From Rhabdothermincola sediminis (GTDB lineage Bacteria > Actinomycetota > Acidimicrobiia > Acidimicrobiales > Acidimicrobilacustridaceae), in the NCBI RefSeq assembly GCF_014805525.1, contig NZ_JACFSZ010000007.1, forward strand, positions 1-64,000: DNA of 64,000 nt, given 5' to 3'. The notes under the pieces were generated by a model. The model was not told the DNA's origin. It saw only the letters and a program-made list of their open reading frames with translations, and searched no databases. Position 1 is the first letter of the stretch. Each line of letters opens with the position of its first letter. The translations under genes were made by a program, and so were the position numbers. This document shows positions 2,967-48,297 of this stretch, piece by piece.

Positions 2967-3990
2967 GCCGCGCCAACACCTGGCGGACCTGACCAGCGTC
3001 GATCGCGCCACGAGCACGGTCGAGGCCTGCGGCCAGGTCGTCCACCTCCCCTGCGACCCACAGACCCGCAGCCGCGTTGAGGGTGACGATGTCGCGATAG
3101 GGACCCTGCTCGCCGGCCAGCACCCGCTGGGCGATGGCGGCGTTCTCCTCCGGCGTCCCGCCCTTGACCTGCTCGGCGTCGACCACCTCGAGACCCAGGT
3201 CGCGCGGATCCAGCTCGAAGGTGCGCACCCTCCCCTGGTGCAGCTCGAACACGGTGGACGGCCCGGTGGTGGTGAGCTCGTCCATCCCGTCGGAGCCGTG
3301 CACCACCAGAGCACGCGGCGCCTGCCGAGCCTCGAGCACGCCGAGCACCGTCGCCGCCACCCGCGGGTCGCTCACCCCGATCACCTGCCTGACGACCCGC
3401 GCCGGGTTCGACAGTGGCCCGAGGACGTTGAACACCGTCGGCACACCCAGCTCGGCCCGCACCGGTCCGGCGTGCCGCATCGCCGGGTGGAAGGCGCGGG
3501 CAAAGCAGAACCCGACCCCCGCCTCTCGCACGCAACGGGCGACCGTTGGGCCGTCGAGGTCGATGGGCACCCCGAGCGCGTCGAGCAGGTCGAACGAGCC
3601 GCTGGTGGAGGAGGCCCGGCGGTTGCCGTGCTTGCACACCCGGGCCCCTGCCCCGGCGGCCACCAGGCTGGCCATGGTGGAGACGTTCAGCGCGTGGACC
3701 CGCCGGGTGGGCGCGCCGCCGGTGCCGACGATGTCGATGGCCGATGCTGCGAGCTCGCCGAGCTCGACGGGCGCCGCGGCGGCGAGCATGGCCTCGACCA
3801 TGCCGACCATCTCGTCGACGGTTTCGCCCTTCATGCGCAGGGCGACGATGAAGCCGGCGATCTGCACCGGTGTGGCCTCGCCGGAGAGGATCTGGCCCAT
3901 CGCCGCTGATGCCTCGGAACGGGTCAGGTCGCGGCCATCGACCAGGGTGCCGAGGATGCCCCGCCAACCTCCCAGCTCGTCGAAGACCAT
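2929..3990 (-). CDS. trpD: Anthranilate phosphoribosyltransferase
   Basis: TrpD transfers the phosphoribosyl group of PRPP to anthranilate, the second step from chorismate to tryptophan, in the cytoplasm. The 353-residue protein matches the family in length. The N-terminal helical bundle is followed by the PRPP-binding loop DIVGTGGAPTRRVHALNVST, then CKHGNRRASSTSGSFDLLDALG, which holds the anthranilate-binding region, and LGPLSNPA near the C-terminal half. The ATG at 3990 is chosen because MVFDELGGWRGILGTL matches the normal N-terminus. No other trp genes are adjacent, so it is probably transcribed alone or with the upstream whiB, whose stop lies 14 nt before this start. Confidence 0.96.
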   Translation of the reverse strand: MVFDELGGWRGILGTLVDGRDLTRSEASAAMGQILSGEATPVQIAGFIVALRMKGETVDEMVGMVEAMLAAAAPVELGELAASAIDIVGTGGAPTRRVHALNVSTMASLVAAGAGARVCKHGNRRASSTSGSFDLLDALGVPIDLDGPTVARCVREAGVGFCFARAFHPAMRHAGPVRAELGVPTVFNVLGPLSNPARVVRQVIGVSDPRVAATVLGVLEARQAPRALVVHGSDGMDELTTTGPSTVFELHQGRVRTFELDPRDLGLEVVDAEQVKGGTPEENAAIAQRVLAGEQGPYRDIVTLNAAAGLWVAGEVDDLAAGLDRARGAIDAGQVRQVLARLIDVASSGAADR

Positions 3991-43005: not shown

Positions 43006-43598
43006 CGGGTTGGACGGACCAAGCCGACGTCCCGGGGCGGGCCGGTCCGGCGAGCCGATCGCCCACGCGCTACCCGGCGATCCCGGTCCTGCTGGGCATC
43101 ACCCTCGCCACCGCGCTGGTGCACGCGGTCTCCGTGATCGTCGGTGCCGCGGTCGGCGCCGCCATCCACACCACTGCGATCACCGTGGCGGCGGCCATTG
43201 CGTTCGTGGGTTTCGGGCTCTGGACGTTGCGCGGGGACGAGCTCAGCGAGGACGAGGAGGAACGGCCGCCCGCCCGGCGAGTCGTTGGGCCGATGACACC
43301 GTGCCACACACCCCACCTCGATGGTCCAGCGAGCGGCTGCCACGGCTTCAGTGCGCGTGACGATGGTGCAGGTCGGGGACGTGGGGGTGCGCGTGCTGGA
43401 CCGGCTCGTGGCGGTGCCGATGGGTGTGGCTGCCGGACACGCTCTCCGGATGGGTGTGGCGGTGATGGCCGTCGTCGTGGCGATGCTCGTGGTCGTGCTC
43501 GAGCACCTCGTGGACGTGGGGATGGTCGTGGGCGGTCCGCAACGACAGCCCGACGCCGGCCGCGGCGAGGGGAATCGCGAGCAGTTGCACGGCGGTGA
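43002..43598 (+). pseudogene. Truncated GDT1/TMEM165 (UPF0016)-like gene
   Basis: Only the first 90 or so residues resemble the UPF0016/GDT1 family of Mn2+/Ca2+ transporters: IPVLLGITLATALVHAVSVI, AVGAAIHTTAITVAAAIAFV and GLWTLRGDELSEDEEE. The family's ExGDK(T/S) metal motif in the first helix is missing, as is the second repeat. The open frame continues to 43598 but that part is low-complexity Gly/Arg/Ala and overlaps the opposite-strand EamA gene by 250 nt. It is therefore probably a broken remnant, although a one-repeat protein cannot be fully excluded. Its ATG overlaps the upstream transporter stop. Confidence 0.6.
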
Positions 43599-44388
43599 TG
43601 GGCTCGCCGAGCACGGTCCACGACAGCGCCGCCCCGAGGAACGGTGCTAGGGCGAAGATGACCTGCGCCCGGGCCGCCCCGAGATCGCGGGCCCCCGTGA
43701 CCCACAGGGCGATCGACGCGCCATAGCCGAACGCCCCGATGACCAGTGCGACGACGATCGCTCGGGCATCGACCTGCCAGGAACCGGCGATGGCGATCCC
43801 GAGCACCACATTGACCGTCCCGGCCACCGCGCCCTTCACCAGGGTGATCTGCTCCGGACCGAGCTGGTCGAGACGGGCGGTGACGTTGTTGTCGATGCCC
43901 CATGCGATGCAGGCGCCGATGATGAACAACGCATTCAGGTCGAATCTGGCGCCCGGTTCCCAGACGAGCAGGGCCCCCGCGAGGGTGACCAGGCCGGCGG
44001 CGACGAGGAGCCGGCGACCCAGGTGTTCACGGAACAGGACTCCGGCCAGTCCGATGGTGGCGACGAGCTCGACGTTCAGCAGCAGCGATGCCGTGGCCGC
44101 CGGAAGGCGCTCGAGCCCGGCGACGAGCAGTACGGGGCCGATCGCGCCCCCGAACACCACCGCGAGCGCGAGGGAGCGGGCTCCGCTGTGCATCGCGCTC
44201 ATCGTCGGGCGTTGACGGACCGCGCCAGGAAACACCACCAGCGCGGCACTGAGGTAGAGCAGGCCTGCCAACACCAGGGTCGGCATACCCCCGGCGAGCA
44301 CGGAGGCGGCCGGCGCAGAGCTCCCGAACAGCACCGCGGCGACCAGAGAGCGCAGCGCCCCGCGACCGGCGGGAGCGATGCCCATCAC
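43348..44388 (-). CDS. EamA/DMT-family transporter with long His-rich tail
   Basis: The 346-residue protein has ten membrane helices in two EamA repeats (LFGSSAPAASVLAGGMPTLV in repeat 1 and CIAWGIDNNVTARLDQLGPE in repeat 2, ending ALSWTVLGEPITAVQLLAIP). The last 60 residues form a hydrophilic tail with some 20 histidines (HDHPHVHEVLEHDHEHRHDD, HRHTHPESVSGSHTHRHRH, HAHPHVPDLHHRHAH), likely a metal-binding or metal-sensing element. Together with the nearby copper genes this suggests a metal transporter rather than a metabolite exporter, though classical DMT exporters do not carry such tails. Start chosen at ATG 44388. Confidence 0.9.
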   Translation of the reverse strand: MMGIAPAGRGALRSLVAAVLFGSSAPAASVLAGGMPTLVLAGLLYLSAALVVFPGAVRQRPTMSAMHSGARSLALAVVFGGAIGPVLLVAGLERLPAATASLLLNVELVATIGLAGVLFREHLGRRLLVAAGLVTLAGALLVWEPGARFDLNALFIIGACIAWGIDNNVTARLDQLGPEQITLVKGAVAGTVNVVLGIAIAGSWQVDARAIVVALVIGAFGYGASIALWVTGARDLGAARAQVIFALAPFLGAALSWTVLGEPITAVQLLAIPLAAAGVGLSLRTAHDHPHVHEVLEHDHEHRHDDGHHRHTHPESVSGSHTHRHRHEPVQHAHPHVPDLHHRHAH

Positions 44389-44406: not shown

Positions 44407-45084
44407 TCAGGTCGGGGGCGACAGCAGCGCCCTCATCTGGTCGATCTCGGCCTGCTGGGCGGCGATGATGGCGCGGGCCAGGTCCTTGGCCGGCGGGTAC
44501 TTGCCGTCGGTGAGTTCCTGTTGGGCCATCTGGATCGCCCCCTCATGGTGCCGGATCATCATCTCCAGGAACATCCGGTCGAACTCCGCACCACTGGCCG
44601 CGCCGAGGCGGGCCATGTCGTCGTCGGACATCATCCCGAACATCATCATGCACCCTGAGCTGGTGGAGTCGTGACCCATCGGAGCGTTGCGGTCCGGCAC
44701 GGGCTGCCCCCAGGCTTCGAGCCAGCTCGCCATGAGGGTGATCTCGGGATCCTGGGCTGCCTTGACCTTCTCGGCGAGCGCCCGGACGGTCGGGTCGGTG
44801 GAGATCGCGAGGGCCAGCTCCGCCATCTCCACGGCTTGGGCGTGGTGCGGGATCATGCCCTGGGCGAAGGCGACGTCGATGGCGTTGAACGCGGCGTCGG
44901 CGGGCACGCTGATCGTGGAGGTCGAGCCCGTCATGCCGGCACCCATGTCGTCGTGGGGCATGGACGATCCCGGCAGGTCATCACCTGACCCCATGTCCAT
45001 GTCACCGTGGTCGTTCGAGGAGCACGCGGCGGCGGTGAGAGCGGAGACGGCCGCGATGGTGACGATGGCGAGGCGTAGGCGCAC
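44407..45084 (-). CDS. DUF305 family lipoprotein
   Basis: The 225-residue product has a lipoprotein signal (VSALTAAACSS) and a Met/His-rich mature N-terminus (DHGDMDMGSGDDLPG). It contains two copies of the DUF305 motif, FAQGMIPHHAQAVEMAELAL and FLEMMIRHHEGAIQMAQQEL, plus SGCMMMFGMMSDDDM. DUF305 proteins are associated with copper and other metal resistance; their His/Met motifs suggest metal binding. GTG at 45084 follows GGAGGTCC. A BlaI-type palindrome lies 28 nt upstream, so it is probably controlled by the BlaI repressor encoded in this locus. Confidence 0.92.
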   Translation of the reverse strand: MRLRLAIVTIAAVSALTAAACSSNDHGDMDMGSGDDLPGSSMPHDDMGAGMTGSTSTISVPADAAFNAIDVAFAQGMIPHHAQAVEMAELALAISTDPTVRALAEKVKAAQDPEITLMASWLEAWGQPVPDRNAPMGHDSTSSGCMMMFGMMSDDDMARLGAASGAEFDRMFLEMMIRHHEGAIQMAQQELTDGKYPPAKDLARAIIAAQQAEIDQMRALLSPPT

Positions 45085-45111
45085 GGGTGGGACCTCCTGG
45101 ATGGCGAGAGC

Positions 45112-45150
45112 ACCGACTGATCTACGACAGTATGTCGTAGATCAGTCGGT
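45112..45150. promoter_or_regulatory. 39-bp perfect palindrome with BlaI-type core upstream of the DUF305 gene
   Basis: Left arm ACCGACTGATCTACGACA (45112-45129), spacer GTA, right arm is its exact reverse complement (45133-45150): 18-bp arms with a 3-bp gap. The core CTACGACA-N3-TGTCGTAG is shared with two other sites in the locus. It ends inside the stop codon of the upstream gene (45142) and sits 28 nt from the DUF305 start, so it could be operator, terminator, or both. Confidence 0.8.
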
Positions 45151-45405
45151 CTCGGAGGTCGGTCCGTCGGCGCGCGGCCGCGACTGCCGGTCGCGGCTCA
45201 TCACGGCCGCGCACACGCCCGCCGCGGTGACGCCGACCGCGGCCGCGACGGCGCTCCCCAGCGTCAGACCGAGCATCGCGCTGGTGAGCACGATCACGGT
45301 CATCGGTACCACGCAGCACACGGCGAGGGCGATGAGCATGCCACGTTCGACCCTGGCGTGATTCGAATGACTCGCGCCATCGGGCCGCTCCTCCTCACAG
45401 GACAT
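45142..45405 (-). CDS. Small membrane protein in the metal locus
   Basis: An 87-residue protein with a short charged N-terminus (MSCEEERPDGASHSNHARVE), then two membrane segments (MLIALAVCCVVPMTVIVL and LGSAVAAAVGVTAAGVCAAV) and a basic tail. Two Cys in the first segment (CC) and one more could take part in metal binding, but this is weak. The start overlaps the 3' end of the multicopper oxidase gene by 11 nt, so it is co-transcribed with it. A translation start at the internal ATG (MLIALAV) would give a 65-residue protein. Function unknown. Confidence 0.62.
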   Translation of the reverse strand: MSCEEERPDGASHSNHARVERGMLIALAVCCVVPMTVIVLTSAMLGLTLGSAVAAAVGVTAAGVCAAVMSRDRQSRPRADGPTSETD

Positions 45406-46942
45406 ACGACAGGACCATCGCCATGCCGCGTTCCAGGTGGTACGTGTTGTGGCAGTGGGTCATCCACTGACCGGGGTTGTCCGCATCGAACTCGACGACC
45501 ACGGTCTCACCCGGGAGGACGTTGACCGTGTCCTTGCGTGGCCCCGCAGGGTCGGTGCCGACACGAAAGGTGTGGCCGTGCAGGTGGATCGGGTGCCACA
45601 TCGACGTGGTGTTCTCGAATCGCAGCCGGACCCGTTGACCCTGGCGAATGCCCATCGGCGGTCGCTCCGGGTGTGGGAGACCATCGAACGCCCACACGTA
45701 CGGCATCATCGAGCCCGTCAGGGTCACCGTCTCGGAGACATCGACGTCACGGGGCCCGAGCCGGACCCCCTCGGCTGCTCGGAGGTCCGCGTAGCCGAGC
45801 AGCCGGCCGTCGAGCTCCGGTGGGCGCAGGTCAACCGGCGGCTCTGCGGCCGTAGAGCCTCTGGTGCGCAAGACCAGGCTGGCGGTCTGGTCCTTACCTT
45901 CGGCCAAGGCCACGAAGGGCCATGCGCCATCGGAGAGGGTGACCAGCACGTCGTAGCGCTCACCCATGCCGATGAGCAGCGCGTCCACCTCGACCGGCTC
46001 GACCGGGAACCCGTCGGCGTGGGTGACCGTCAGGCGATGACCACCGATCGCCACCCGGTACGCGGTGTCGGAGCCGGCGTTGATCACGCGCAGCCGAGCT
46101 CGACCACGGGAGGGAACCTCGATCGTCGAGCGGTCCACGGAAGCACGTCCGTTGATGAGGTGCAGGGGATAGCCGACGTCTCCGGCGTCGCCACCCAGGA
46201 GCGTCGAGCGGAACATGCCCATCCCACCCCCCATCCCTCCCATCTCCCCGGAGCCGCCCATGCCCCCCATACCGTGGCCGCCACCCATCCCCATCGACGT
46301 GAGCTGCTCGTACGCGCGATCCGGGGTGGTGCCGAGTCCGTCGAGCCAGTCGTCGAGCACGATGACCTCATCGACGTCGTAGGCGCCAGGCTCGTCCGGT
46401 TCGTCGATCACCAGTGGTGCGTACAGCGCTCGGTCGAGCTGGAGGCCCATGTGCGGATGGAACCAGTACGTGCCCGCGTGAGGAGCGGTGAAGCGGTAGG
46501 TGAAGGTGTCGCCGGGGTGGATCGGGGGCTGGGTCAGGTCGTGCACCCCGTCCATGTCGTTGCGCAAGGCCAGGCCGTGCCAGTGGACGGTGGTGTCTTC
46601 GGGCAGGTCGTTGCGCAGCACGACCTCCACGGTGTCGCCCACCACCGCACGCAGCGTCGCTCCGGGGGCGGCTCCGTCGTAGGCCCAGGTCTCGACTCGC
46701 CGGTTGCCCACCTCCAGCGTGGCGGGAGCCGCGCGCAGCTCGCGACGCACGACGGTCCCCGTCTTCGGCCGGGCCGCCTCCACGGCCGCGACGGCCGGGT
46801 CGGTCGGTCCGATGGTGGCAGGGGGCGCGGAGGGTGCCGATCGCGAACGACTCCCCGATGTGGAGCAGCCAGCGGCGGCGGCGAGCGCGGTCGCGCCGGC
46901 GGCGACCAGGAACCGACGGCGATCGAGCGGGTGGCCCGTCAT
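45395..46942 (-). CDS. Tat-exported multicopper oxidase (CueO-like)
   Basis: The 515-residue protein has a Tat/lipobox signal (LDRRRFLVAAGATALAAAAG then C), followed by three cupredoxin domains with the four conserved copper motifs: TVHWHGLAL, YWFHPHMG, WHPIHLHGHTF and MTHCHNTYHLERGM. Between domains 1 and 2 lies a Met/Gly-rich insert (SMGMGGGHGMGGMGGSGEMG), like the Met-rich region of CueO that binds Cu(I). It probably oxidises toxic Cu(I) or phenols in the cell envelope. An ACGACA-N3-TGTCGT palindrome sits 14 nt upstream of the ATG, so BlaI control is likely. Confidence 0.95.
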   Translation of the reverse strand: MTGHPLDRRRFLVAAGATALAAAAGCSTSGSRSRSAPSAPPATIGPTDPAVAAVEAARPKTGTVVRRELRAAPATLEVGNRRVETWAYDGAAPGATLRAVVGDTVEVVLRNDLPEDTTVHWHGLALRNDMDGVHDLTQPPIHPGDTFTYRFTAPHAGTYWFHPHMGLQLDRALYAPLVIDEPDEPGAYDVDEVIVLDDWLDGLGTTPDRAYEQLTSMGMGGGHGMGGMGGSGEMGGMGGGMGMFRSTLLGGDAGDVGYPLHLINGRASVDRSTIEVPSRGRARLRVINAGSDTAYRVAIGGHRLTVTHADGFPVEPVEVDALLIGMGERYDVLVTLSDGAWPFVALAEGKDQTASLVLRTRGSTAAEPPVDLRPPELDGRLLGYADLRAAEGVRLGPRDVDVSETVTLTGSMMPYVWAFDGLPHPERPPMGIRQGQRVRLRFENTTSMWHPIHLHGHTFRVGTDPAGPRKDTVNVLPGETVVVEFDADNPGQWMTHCHNTYHLERGMAMVLSYVL

Positions 46943-46955
46943 GCACCACTCCTTT

Positions 46956-46974
46956 CTACGACAATGTGTCGTAG
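46956..46974. promoter_or_regulatory. BlaI-type palindrome upstream of the multicopper oxidase
   Basis: CTACGACA-ATG-TGTCGTAG lies 14 nt before the oxidase start, in the 59-nt gap to the M56 gene. It shares its core (TACGACA-N3-TGTCGTA) with the site at 45121-45140 and, more loosely, with 48283-48297. Its position over the ribosome site or promoter suggests repression. Confidence 0.85.
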
Positions 46975-47001
46975 ATGCTAGCTGACCCCTCCCGGAACAG
47001 G

Positions 47002-47883
47002 TCAGCGGCAGGCGTGGTCGAGGAAGAAGACGAGGTGGTGAAGCTGGACGGAGGATCCGGCGAGGGTCGTCACGATCGTCATCGTCGAGGCCGCCGCGGG
47101 CAGGGTGAGCCGGACCGGGGTGGACGGACGCAGGAGGGCCTCGACCCGGGCGGCGGCACTCAGCGACCGGAACCCCAGCACGCCGGGGGCCGGGCTGGGT
47201 GCGCCGAGGAGGGCGACCCGGGCGATCGCCCGGGCCACCAGGGTGCGGGAACCGACCGCGCTCGCCGCGGTCTCATCAGCCCACCGTTCGGTGTTGAAAC
47301 GGACCTGGCGGGCGAGGGGCACGAGGAAGGGGAACGCGGCAGCGCAGGTCTCCACAGCGTGGACGTAACGGTGGTGGCCGTGATCGAGGTGGGCGTGCTC
47401 GTGCGCGATCACCGCCTGGCGCTCGTCCCGGCTGAGGGTGCGGACCAGCTCATCACCGAGGATGACCCCGCCGGGTGAGCCAGGCACCGCGAACGCCACT
47501 GCCCCCGCGGCGGCGATCACCTCCACACCCTCGACGGCCGCGAACGCCGCCATCTCCGCTCGGCTCCGGCTGAGGTAGCGCCGTGCCCGGCGGGCGGCGA
47601 CCACCAGCAGCGCCGCGGCGAGTGCACCGGCCCATGGCGCGGCGCCGTGGTCGCCGGGGTAGAGCGCGTCGCACCAGCCGAGCCACGACGACACGTCGTG
47701 CAGCTCCGACGCACCGGCCAGCACCACCAGGGCCAGCGCGGCAGCCACCCCGGCGGCAGCCACGACGGTCGCCACGGTGAGCACCCGAACGCTCGAAGCC
47801 GGCGACGTCACCCGCGGCAAGAACCATCCCGCGGCCACACCGGCGACGACGAGCAACAGCGGGGCGACGAGCAGCACGTTCAC
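47002..47883 (-). CDS. M56-family (BlaR1-like) membrane metallopeptidase
   Basis: The 293-residue protein has two or three N-terminal membrane segments (VAPLLLVVAGVAAGWFLP, TVATVVAAAGVAAALALVVL, AGALAAALLVVAA) and a zinc-protease site ERQAVIAHEHAHLDHGH (HExxH with a later His/Glu). It is a BlaR1-like protease domain without a penicillin-binding sensor domain. By analogy with BlaR1, it should cleave the BlaI repressor encoded directly upstream when a signal arrives; the signal cannot be beta-lactam recognition by a PBP domain, because none is present. Its GTG overlaps the repressor stop by 4 nt. Confidence 0.88.
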   Translation of the reverse strand: MNVLLVAPLLLVVAGVAAGWFLPRVTSPASSVRVLTVATVVAAAGVAAALALVVLAGASELHDVSSWLGWCDALYPGDHGAAPWAGALAAALLVVAARRARRYLSRSRAEMAAFAAVEGVEVIAAAGAVAFAVPGSPGGVILGDELVRTLSRDERQAVIAHEHAHLDHGHHRYVHAVETCAAAFPFLVPLARQVRFNTERWADETAASAVGSRTLVARAIARVALLGAPSPAPGVLGFRSLSAAARVEALLRPSTPVRLTLPAAASTMTIVTTLAGSSVQLHHLVFFLDHACR

Positions 47884-48239
47884 CCGTCCAGCCCCTCGAG
47901 TGCGGCGCGCAGCGCAGCGGCCTCCTTGGCCGACAGCCCGTCGACGAAACGGCTCATGGTCTCGATCCGATCGGTGCTGGCCGCCAGCGCGGACCGCATC
48001 CGAGCCGCGGTGAGCTCGGCCTCGGTGACCGTCGCGGCGTACGTGTAGCCACGACCCCGGCGGGCCCGGCGCACCAGGCCCTTGTCGACCAGGCGGGTCA
48101 GGATGGTGGCGATCGTGGTGTAGGCGAGCTCCCCACCTACACGCTCGCGCACCTCGGCCGGGGTCACCGGCCCGTCCGATCGCCACAGGATCTCGAGGAT
48201 GTCGGCCTCGAGGCTGCCCATCGGGCGACGCTGAGCCAT
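47880..48239 (-). CDS. BlaI/MecI/CopY-family transcriptional repressor
   Basis: The 119-residue protein matches BlaI/CopY: winged-helix N-terminus (GSLEADILEILWRSDGPVTP, AYTTIATILTRLVDKGLVRR) and a dimerisation C-terminus. It lacks the CxCx4CxC copper motif of CopY, so it should respond through proteolysis by the M56 partner rather than by metal binding. ATG at 48239 (8 nt after GGGAG) was preferred over GTG 48245. It overlaps the M56 gene. A palindrome 44 nt upstream (48283-48297) suggests autoregulation; two more copies lie in front of the oxidase and DUF305 genes. Confidence 0.93.
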   Translation of the reverse strand: MAQRRPMGSLEADILEILWRSDGPVTPAEVRERVGGELAYTTIATILTRLVDKGLVRRARRGRGYTYAATVTEAELTAARMRSALAASTDRIETMSRFVDGLSAKEAAALRAALEGLDG

Positions 48240-48282
48240 GGTCACACTCCCGGTCGATCGAACCTCTCGGGTGAACCGAATG

Positions 48283-48297
48283 ACGACAGTCTGTCGT
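48283..48297. promoter_or_regulatory. BlaI-type palindrome upstream of blaI
   Basis: ACGACA-GTC-TGTCGT (15 bp, perfect arms) lies 44 nt before the repressor start. It matches the core of the two other palindromes in the locus and is the expected autoregulatory operator. Confidence 0.8.

Follow-up and report, generated by a model that had tools for sequence, protein, structure and literature searches.

What signal does a BlaI-type repressor serve in a locus where no beta-lactam gene accompanies it? The question is raised by a gene cluster of Rhabdothermincola sediminis, a bacterium of the order Acidimicrobiales, which lies within the 64,000-nucleotide stretch of contig NZ_JACFSZ010000007.1 analysed here (the window). 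Pairs of BlaI and an M56-type membrane protease occur in bacteria without adjoining beta-lactam genes and, to our knowledge, the signals sensed by such pairs are mostly unknown. A preliminary description of the locus drew attention to three copies of a palindrome, ACGACA-N3-TGTCGT, located upstream of blaI, of a multicopper oxidase (MCO) gene and of a DUF305 gene, and took the target genes to point to copper or envelope redox stress. Our analysis indicates that this locus is probably a copper-response regulon under the control of a repressor of the BlaI type paired with a BlaR1-type membrane protease. The parts belong to known protein families, and the use of a BlaR1-BlaI-like pair for copper appears to be new. 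The genes, all on the minus strand, follow each other in the order blaI, M56-type protease, MCO, small membrane protein, DUF305 and EamA transporter; together with the three putative operators, they are arranged as follows.

48283..48297, unstranded: operator 3, ACGACA-GTC-TGTCGT, its 15-base core 43 nucleotides (nt) ahead of the start codon of blaI
47880..48239, minus strand: blaI, BlaI/MecI-type winged-helix repressor (PF03965, 87.9 bits), 119 residues from the ATG at 48239
47002..47883, minus strand: M56-type membrane protease, 294 residues, HEHAH motif, GTG start
46956..46974, unstranded: operator 2, CTACGACA-ATG-TGTCGTAG, 13 nt upstream of the MCO start codon
45395..46942, minus strand: multicopper oxidase (PF07731, PF07732, PF00394)
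45142..45405, minus strand: small membrane protein P0004 with a CC-x-x-PM motif, adjoining the MCO gene
45112..45150, unstranded: operator 1, a perfect 39-bp palindrome with 18-bp arms and a 3-base centre, upstream of the DUF305 gene
44407..45084, minus strand: DUF305/CopM-type gene (PF03713, 182 bits), GTG start
43348..44388, minus strand: EamA-type transporter (PF00892) with a very His-rich C-terminal tail, 18 nt after the DUF305 gene

The identities given earlier to BlaI, the MCO and the DUF305 protein are borne out, as all three score above the respective Pfam cut-offs (22.6 bits in the case of the BlaI/MecI family, Penicillinase_R). In addition, the DUF305 protein passes the NCBIfam model for CopM (125.7 bits with a cut-off of 90) and matches the solved CopM chains 5ffa and 5fej. 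The preliminary description had also reported no beta-lactamase or penicillin-binding sensor, and none was detected in the 10 proteins scanned in and around the cluster, the rest of the genome not having been searched for beta-lactamases. A function in beta-lactam resistance was rejected on the strength of these scans.

The mechanism that we propose is as follows. Without excess copper, a BlaI dimer would bind the three palindromes and silence its own operon, the operon of the MCO and the small membrane protein, and the DUF305 gene. The M56 protein would perceive excess copper outside the cytoplasmic membrane by way of Cys72 in loop 2 and of the tail residues His283, His284, His291 and Cys293, conserved positions that are proposed to bind copper. 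This would activate the cytosolic HExxH protease which, by analogy to BlaR1 and BlaI, would remove or inactivate the repressor. Production of the MCO, the CopM-type DUF305 protein and the small membrane protein would follow, and these would handle envelope copper.

Putative operators in the R. sediminis genome

All three palindromes are present in the positions where they had been described, 13-43 nt before start codons, and the genome-wide motif scan that had been suggested as a check finds no further exact copies. In the 3,293,621 bases scanned, ACGACA-N3-TGTCGT matches exactly only at 45124-45138, 46958-46972 and 48283-48297, all within 3.2 kb. About 0.2 exact matches would be expected by chance, an estimate based on the reversed pattern which, at up to two mismatches, yields 147 matches and covers 631 letter combinations. 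Degenerate matches are not enriched, either in the window at up to three mismatches (26 observed and 26.5 expected) or in the genome at up to two (138 against the 147 of the reversed control), so that the signal resides in the exact copies only. The longer, 19-base form, CTACGACA-N3-TGTCGTAG, has two exact matches in the genome, both in this locus, none with one mismatch, and three with two mismatches, all of which sit within long open frames; at up to three mismatches, there are 29 matches against 45 for the reversed control. Given that exact sites are found only here and that weaker matches stay at the background level, the regulon of this genome appears to be confined to the locus. A search of the genome with PF03965 at an E-value of 0.001 retrieves a single match, the BlaI of the window.

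The core of all three copies is GACA-N3-TGTC. None of the sites contains the BlaI/MecI operator core, TACA-N2-TGTA (the 10-base TACANNTGTA), as it is given in the accessible part of PMC7253601. Operator 3 is the weakest of the three, with flanks that leave three mismatches to the 19-base form, and could mediate putative autoregulation of blaI. The 19-base form within operator 1 lies 37 nt upstream of the GTG start codon of the DUF305 gene, and the stop codon of P0004 is contained in this palindrome.

Copper genes and operators in related loci

Of 148 genomes searched (that of R. sediminis included), 30 have homologues of the M56 protein. Twenty stretches were fetched, 19 at or adjoining M56 matches and one at a motif match, along with 39 further stretches from additional matches of the same search and from a search with a profile against 395 genomes of the class. 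The latter gives matches in 321 genomes at an E-value of 0.001, most of the listed ones being weak, short and limited to the protease motif. Of 396 genomes searched across the phylum, 10 gave strong matches (E-value below 1e-35): three belong to the same order (again with R. sediminis itself) and seven to one other genus. Three named distant M56 relatives were found, two in Streptomyces and one in Actinospica, and the viral contigs searched contain no relative. Rows with an M56 match under 45 bits or with no BlaI match within 2.5 kb were dropped, and one stretch without an M56 match (L059) was left out; 64 rows, representing 63 loci, were kept. Since rows were kept only if paired with blaI, this pairing is not countable as evidence. 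The branch of the window's M56 protein was delineated by a score of over 200 bits to a profile and a Cys at position 72. The 14 rows of this profile were our own pick among the best matches, and the branch is therefore defined by likeness to the window.

Copper markers (DUF305, MCO, CopC/D, the small CC protein, and CopA over 800 bits) were counted anywhere in a stretch. They are present in 20 of the 25 branch loci, the window included, in 8 of the 38 other BlaI-M56 loci, and in none of 20 random stretches; the latter, taken from seven of the same genomes, are 18.5 kb long each, compared with a mean of about 13.9 kb for the other stretches, which makes the contrast conservative. Among the branch loci without a marker (L051, L058, L101, L102 and L110), two, L051 and L101, contain a cupredoxin gene. 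The genes for DUF305, BlaI and M56 are adjacent in eight loci (L043-L049 and L055); CopC/D is encoded upstream in L043, L045-L047 and L049, and an MCO together with a CopA-type ATPase downstream in L043. Mapped on the tree of the M56 proteins, the copper label requires 13 changes, compared with a mean of 18.9 for shuffled labels (0 of 500 as low), and does not form one clade. The label is clustered on the tree, but the branch is not strictly copper-only. With these counts, and with the same operator recurring in related loci, the earlier suggestion that the target genes point to copper is supported as a hypothesis.

At up to two mismatches, the 19-base motif occurs 24 times in the 327 kb of the 24 branch loci other than the window, 21 times in the 531 kb of the other BlaI-M56 loci, and not once in the 370 kb of the 20 random regions, where four matches appear at three mismatches. 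Its presence in the other BlaI-M56 loci indicates that this operator is common to the wider BlaI family of the class, with the copper branch as one user. Targets were listed as genes that start just downstream of a site with up to three mismatches in the branch loci and up to two in the others. They encode MCO (L043, L044, L105), DUF305 (L043, L044, L049, L104, L138), CopC/D (L045, L046, L047, L108), the small CC protein followed by CopC (L042), CopA (L122), a cupredoxin (L101), and BlaI (L042, L105, L115, L117). The MCO operators of the window, L043 and L044 all have the same spacing to the start codon, 13 nt. Further operators precede genes for rhodanese-domain proteins (L044, L051), cytochrome c (L052 and, by likeness, L058) and M23 peptidoglycan hydrolases (L102, L111), and paralogues of Lgt (prolipoprotein diacylglyceryl transferase) are encoded directly downstream of operators in L052, L058, L109, L126 and L138. 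The other BlaI loci also include operators ahead of genes without a copper link, for example those for Rieske, iron-sulphur (ferredoxin-type) and histidine-kinase proteins.

Ten chosen relatives contain 12 exact ACGACA-N3-TGTCGT sites, of which four precede plausible targets: blaI, a small membrane protein followed by CopC, and DUF305 in G124, and a rhodanese gene in G040. The DUF305 site of G124 lies between this gene and a divergent one, 2.39 Mb along the contig from the blaI-M56 pair, and the start of this unlinked DUF305 gene is about 100-170 nt away from it. Another exact site, on contig C22 of G003, precedes a gene for an ABC1 kinase that lies about 7 kb away from the blaI-M56 pair.

The extended pattern TACGACA-N3-TGTCGTA has a match in 6 of the 148 genomes. 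The copies in G041, G105 and G140 (L035, L037 and L038) are within apparent clpP genes, a call that reflects our reading of the translations with no family search, and were set aside as coding coincidences; copies of this kind, produced by codons, are a trap for motif scans. Rhodanese-domain proteins occur in copper/BlaI neighbourhoods in L044, L051 and L151, and an NlpC/P60 gene adjoins the cluster in L044.

Repressor, protease and candidate sensor

The BlaI protein lacks any cysteine (as scored on P0002, which starts one residue further upstream), in accord with the earlier remark that the repressor is devoid of the CxC motif of CopY. Sensing of the CopY type through CxC motifs is therefore excluded by sequence, and direct copper sensing by BlaI was rejected. 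The CopY/TcrY model TIGR02698 scores 35.9 bits, far under the cut-off of 121.95, and a C-terminal CxC is absent. The nearest solved chain is 2g9w (E-value 6.4e-13), which we take to be the BlaI of Mycobacterium tuberculosis. An x-Phe pair is kept in the C-terminal part of BlaI, with Phe99 aligned to a Phe of 2g9w. In staphylococcal BlaI, the protein is cleaved at an Asn-Phe site, with which this pair appears compatible.

The evidence on the assignment of the second gene to the M56 proteases, made in the preliminary description, is mixed. The Pfam model for M56 (PF05569) reaches 16.4 bits, under the cut-off of 31, whereas the M48 model passes with 38.3 bits against 20.3. In a structure comparison, the top three matches of the AlphaFold model are Staphylococcus aureus BlaR1 (Z-scores 9.2, 8.4 and 7.4; 3.6 in the next row), the match spanning residues 4-246 of the model and residues 3-291 of BlaR1. 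The model, obtained from 4 rows, is weak (mean predicted local distance difference test, pLDDT, of 59) and largely helical, so that this match supports the fold but does not prove it. Foldseek alone gave no significant match, with BlaR1 as the best one at an E-value of 2.3, and a sequence-profile search of solved structures did not list BlaR1, its two best matches being M48-type proteases. The zinc-protease motif HExxH is present as HEHAH at 162-166, with both histidines and the glutamate invariant in the 14 rows. Unlike BlaR1 and MecR1, the protein has no penicillin-sensor domain: it ends about 13 residues past the last hydrophobic segment, with a tail, QLHHLVFFLDHACR, that contains His and Cys. 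Hydropathy indicates four membrane segments, the third of which is weak. The loop with the protease motif contains 20 Lys/Arg residues, compared with none in loop 2 and only the last residue in the tail; therefore, the protease loop is predicted to be inside and loop 2 and the tail outside.

The residues that do not vary among the 14 aligned rows include the HExxH site as well as W71 and C72 in loop 2 and Q281 and H283 in the tail; H291 is nearly invariant, and His284 and Cys293 are present in most rows. The M56 branch hence appears to share a feature that is new here, Cys72 in loop 2 combined with a QxHH tail, both predicted to be outside the membrane. We propose that the loop 2 Cys and the tail function as a copper sensor in place of the penicillin-binding domain. 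Copper is likely to be the inducer of the switch. That the M56 protein is itself the direct envelope copper receptor, with Cys72 and the tail QxHH...HxC as a copper site replacing the penicillin-binding domain of BlaR1, and that this branch and its common operator run the envelope copper defence in many genomes of the class, is a more tentative proposition. If it is true, this would be the first metal-sensing protease-repressor switch; it would add a further route to surface copper sensing besides two-component systems and cytosolic metal repressors, and the short tail would show how gating of a BlaR1-type protease can do without a receptor domain of large size. With its clear operator, clear target genes and short candidate sensor tail, the conserved copper branch makes the question of what such pairs sense directly testable.

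Across the 64 BlaI-paired M56 proteins, Cys72 with a QxHH or QFHQ tail, a pattern picked after the rows had been viewed, goes along with a copper link in 19 of 24 proteins that have it and in 4 of 40 that do not (Fisher p 2.7e-8). For a loop 2 Cys with at least two His in the tail, the corresponding counts are 20 of 31 and 3 of 33 (p 4.5e-6).

A number of observations weigh against the proposed copper regulon and its sensor. The protease model has a pLDDT under 50 in loop 2 and in the tail and is not usable there. The loop 2 Cys alone is weakly associated with the copper link (21 of 48 against 2 of 16; p 0.034), and the tail Cys alone is not associated with it (15 of 41 proteins that have this Cys against 8 of 23 that lack it; p 1). 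Under the rule applied, no copper marker accompanies five of the 24 tail-bearing proteins, and the tail is missing from four M56 proteins that are copper-linked. The Fisher tests overstate the association owing to shared descent, to a sample picked by similarity to mostly copper-linked rows and to the choice of the pattern; a tree-corrected association test had only 3 usable pairs and was underpowered. As for the operators, L045, L046, L048 and L049 have none within two mismatches (L045, L046 and L049 have one at three mismatches before a copper gene), and 7 of the 12 exact core copies in the 10 relatives have no evident target gene when the 1.5-kb flanks are judged by eye (G034, G020, G003 C21, G040 C122, and G124 at 559136, 566785 and 617530). 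Operators of this kind also precede genes for Lgt, peptidoglycan hydrolase, rhodanese and cytochrome c, which suggests that the response of the envelope is a wider one. Finally, the loop 2 Cys and the tail Cys tend to come together (40 proteins with both, 15 with neither, 8 with the loop Cys only and 1 with the tail Cys only), a co-occurrence that a disulfide would also fit.

The last two points are those from which the main rival explanation draws: the M56 protein would sense redox or envelope damage, a disulfide between the two cysteines would gate the protease, and the copper genes would respond to damage caused by copper. If the rows are treated as independent, the two cysteines co-occur far beyond chance (p 4e-8), and their pairing extends to distant M56 branches that lack the HH tail. 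The loop 2 Cys is nevertheless kept without the tail Cys in L045-L049 and L103, which counts against a disulfide as the sole role; furthermore, the invariant part of the tail in the 14 branch rows is His283, and the identified targets are mainly copper-handling genes. Altogether, we consider this explanation rather unlikely.

Alternatively, BlaI could answer a cytosolic ligand or be removed by another protease, so that the M56 protein only tunes the response and is not the sensor, the copper genes still being regulated. Cleavage of BlaI by the M56 protein is assumed here by analogy, and the accessible part of PMC5874750 links M. tuberculosis BlaI to the ATP synthase operon. In the window, the GTG start codon of the M56 gene overlaps the stop codon of blaI, and the absence of cysteines in BlaI likewise speaks against this alternative, which we regard as unlikely. 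It is improbable that the regulon serves another metal (silver, gold or zinc) or responds to general stress of an antimicrobial or envelope kind. DUF305 proteins and multicopper oxidases can act beyond copper, and some operators, as described above, precede Rieske, ferredoxin-type and histidine-kinase genes; nonetheless, CopC, CopD, CopA-type ATPases (some with the CPCALGLATPTA motif), cupredoxins, CopM-type DUF305 proteins and MCO together indicate copper.

The RNA spanning operator 1 (45085-45160, minus strand) is predicted to fold into a very strong hairpin of 28 pairs (-46.1 kcal/mol, z -8.0) at the end of the P0004 gene, and the base of this hairpin includes the Shine-Dalgarno sequence of the DUF305 gene. 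That this hairpin and the other palindromes are terminators or mobile-element hairpins and not operators is very improbable considering that no terminator-like T run was found, that the 13-nt distance to the MCO start codon is fixed in three loci, and that the 20 random regions contain no near matches with up to two mismatches. Formed in read-through RNA, the hairpin may insulate DUF305 from the MCO transcript.

Known systems, accessory proteins and other copper regulators

Like the BlaR1-BlaI and MecR1-MecI systems of staphylococcal beta-lactam resistance, the locus encodes a winged-helix repressor beside a BlaR1-like membrane protease, and an inverted-repeat operator precedes the repressor and the target genes; it differs from these systems in having copper target genes and the core GACA-N3-TGTC in place of TACA-N2-TGTA. 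The task proposed here, namely, to sense copper outside the cytosol and to induce envelope copper proteins, is that of CusRS and CopRS, which are envelope copper two-component systems; the latter act by phosphate transfer, in contrast to the repressor proteolysis proposed for the present pair. The BlaI of M. tuberculosis, Rv1846c, which by our assumption corresponds to 2g9w and is paired with Rv1845c, provides the closest solved chain. In the accessible parts of PMC5874750 and PMC7924339, it is described with the ATP synthase operon, and no copper regulon is described for it in the portions of the literature that were covered. The CopY/CopR repressors of Firmicutes belong to the same superfamily and govern copper genes; according to the accessible part of PMC7253601, CopY binds Cu/Zn itself via CxC motifs, unlike the BlaI of the window, which is free of cysteines and paired with a protease. 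A copper-induced operon of Listeria and Enterococcus, lgt2-lit2, ties a second Lgt gene to copper defence (PMC8275575, accessible part). It is similar to the Lgt paralogues under the BlaI operator in relatives of the locus, whereas the 10 proteins scanned in and around the cluster of the window include no Lgt. A literature search for a BlaI-M56 copper switch, with incomplete coverage that left most subscription papers outside, found none, and the accessible parts of the papers on CopY, M. tuberculosis BlaI and a haloarchaeal BlaI/MecI/CopY gene describe no BlaI-M56 pair for copper.

The MCO scores 266 bits with TIGR01480, under the cut-off of 479; by our reading, its N terminus is twin-arginine plus lipobox-like, and that of the DUF305 protein is lipobox-like. 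The small membrane protein P0004 has no Pfam match above the cut-off. In a profile search with it, 6 of 99 genomes (including that of R. sediminis) gave a match, 4 of these at an E-value below 1e-20. The CC-x-x-PM motif is invariant in P0004 and its relatives, along with a later Cys. Relatives are encoded beside CopC, CopA or MCO; two copies are present in L042, and the protein is also found in L043, in these cases next to CopC or CopA. P0004 may be a new copper membrane protein. The EamA transporter may be the last gene of a DUF305 metal operon.

Elsewhere in the genome, a CsoR-family gene (C2:224968-225213) adjoins a convergent gene for a CopA-like ATPase (C2:223023-224930), and a second CsoR-family gene is located on C16. 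Copper in the cytosol is probably the task of this separate CsoR-family regulator beside the CopA-like ATPase. In L043, a CsoR-like box, TACCCC-TATGGGGTA, as we read it from what we take to be the CsoR consensus, precedes the genes for the small CC protein and CopA, whereas the MCO and DUF305 genes of the same locus carry the BlaI operator instead. This split suggests two layers of control, with CsoR in charge of the cytosol and BlaI-M56 of the envelope. L109 has, at 3843-3922, a BlaI-type operator with what we read as a CsoR-like TACCCCTATGGGGT box no more than about 60 bases beyond it, an arrangement that possibly provides dual control.

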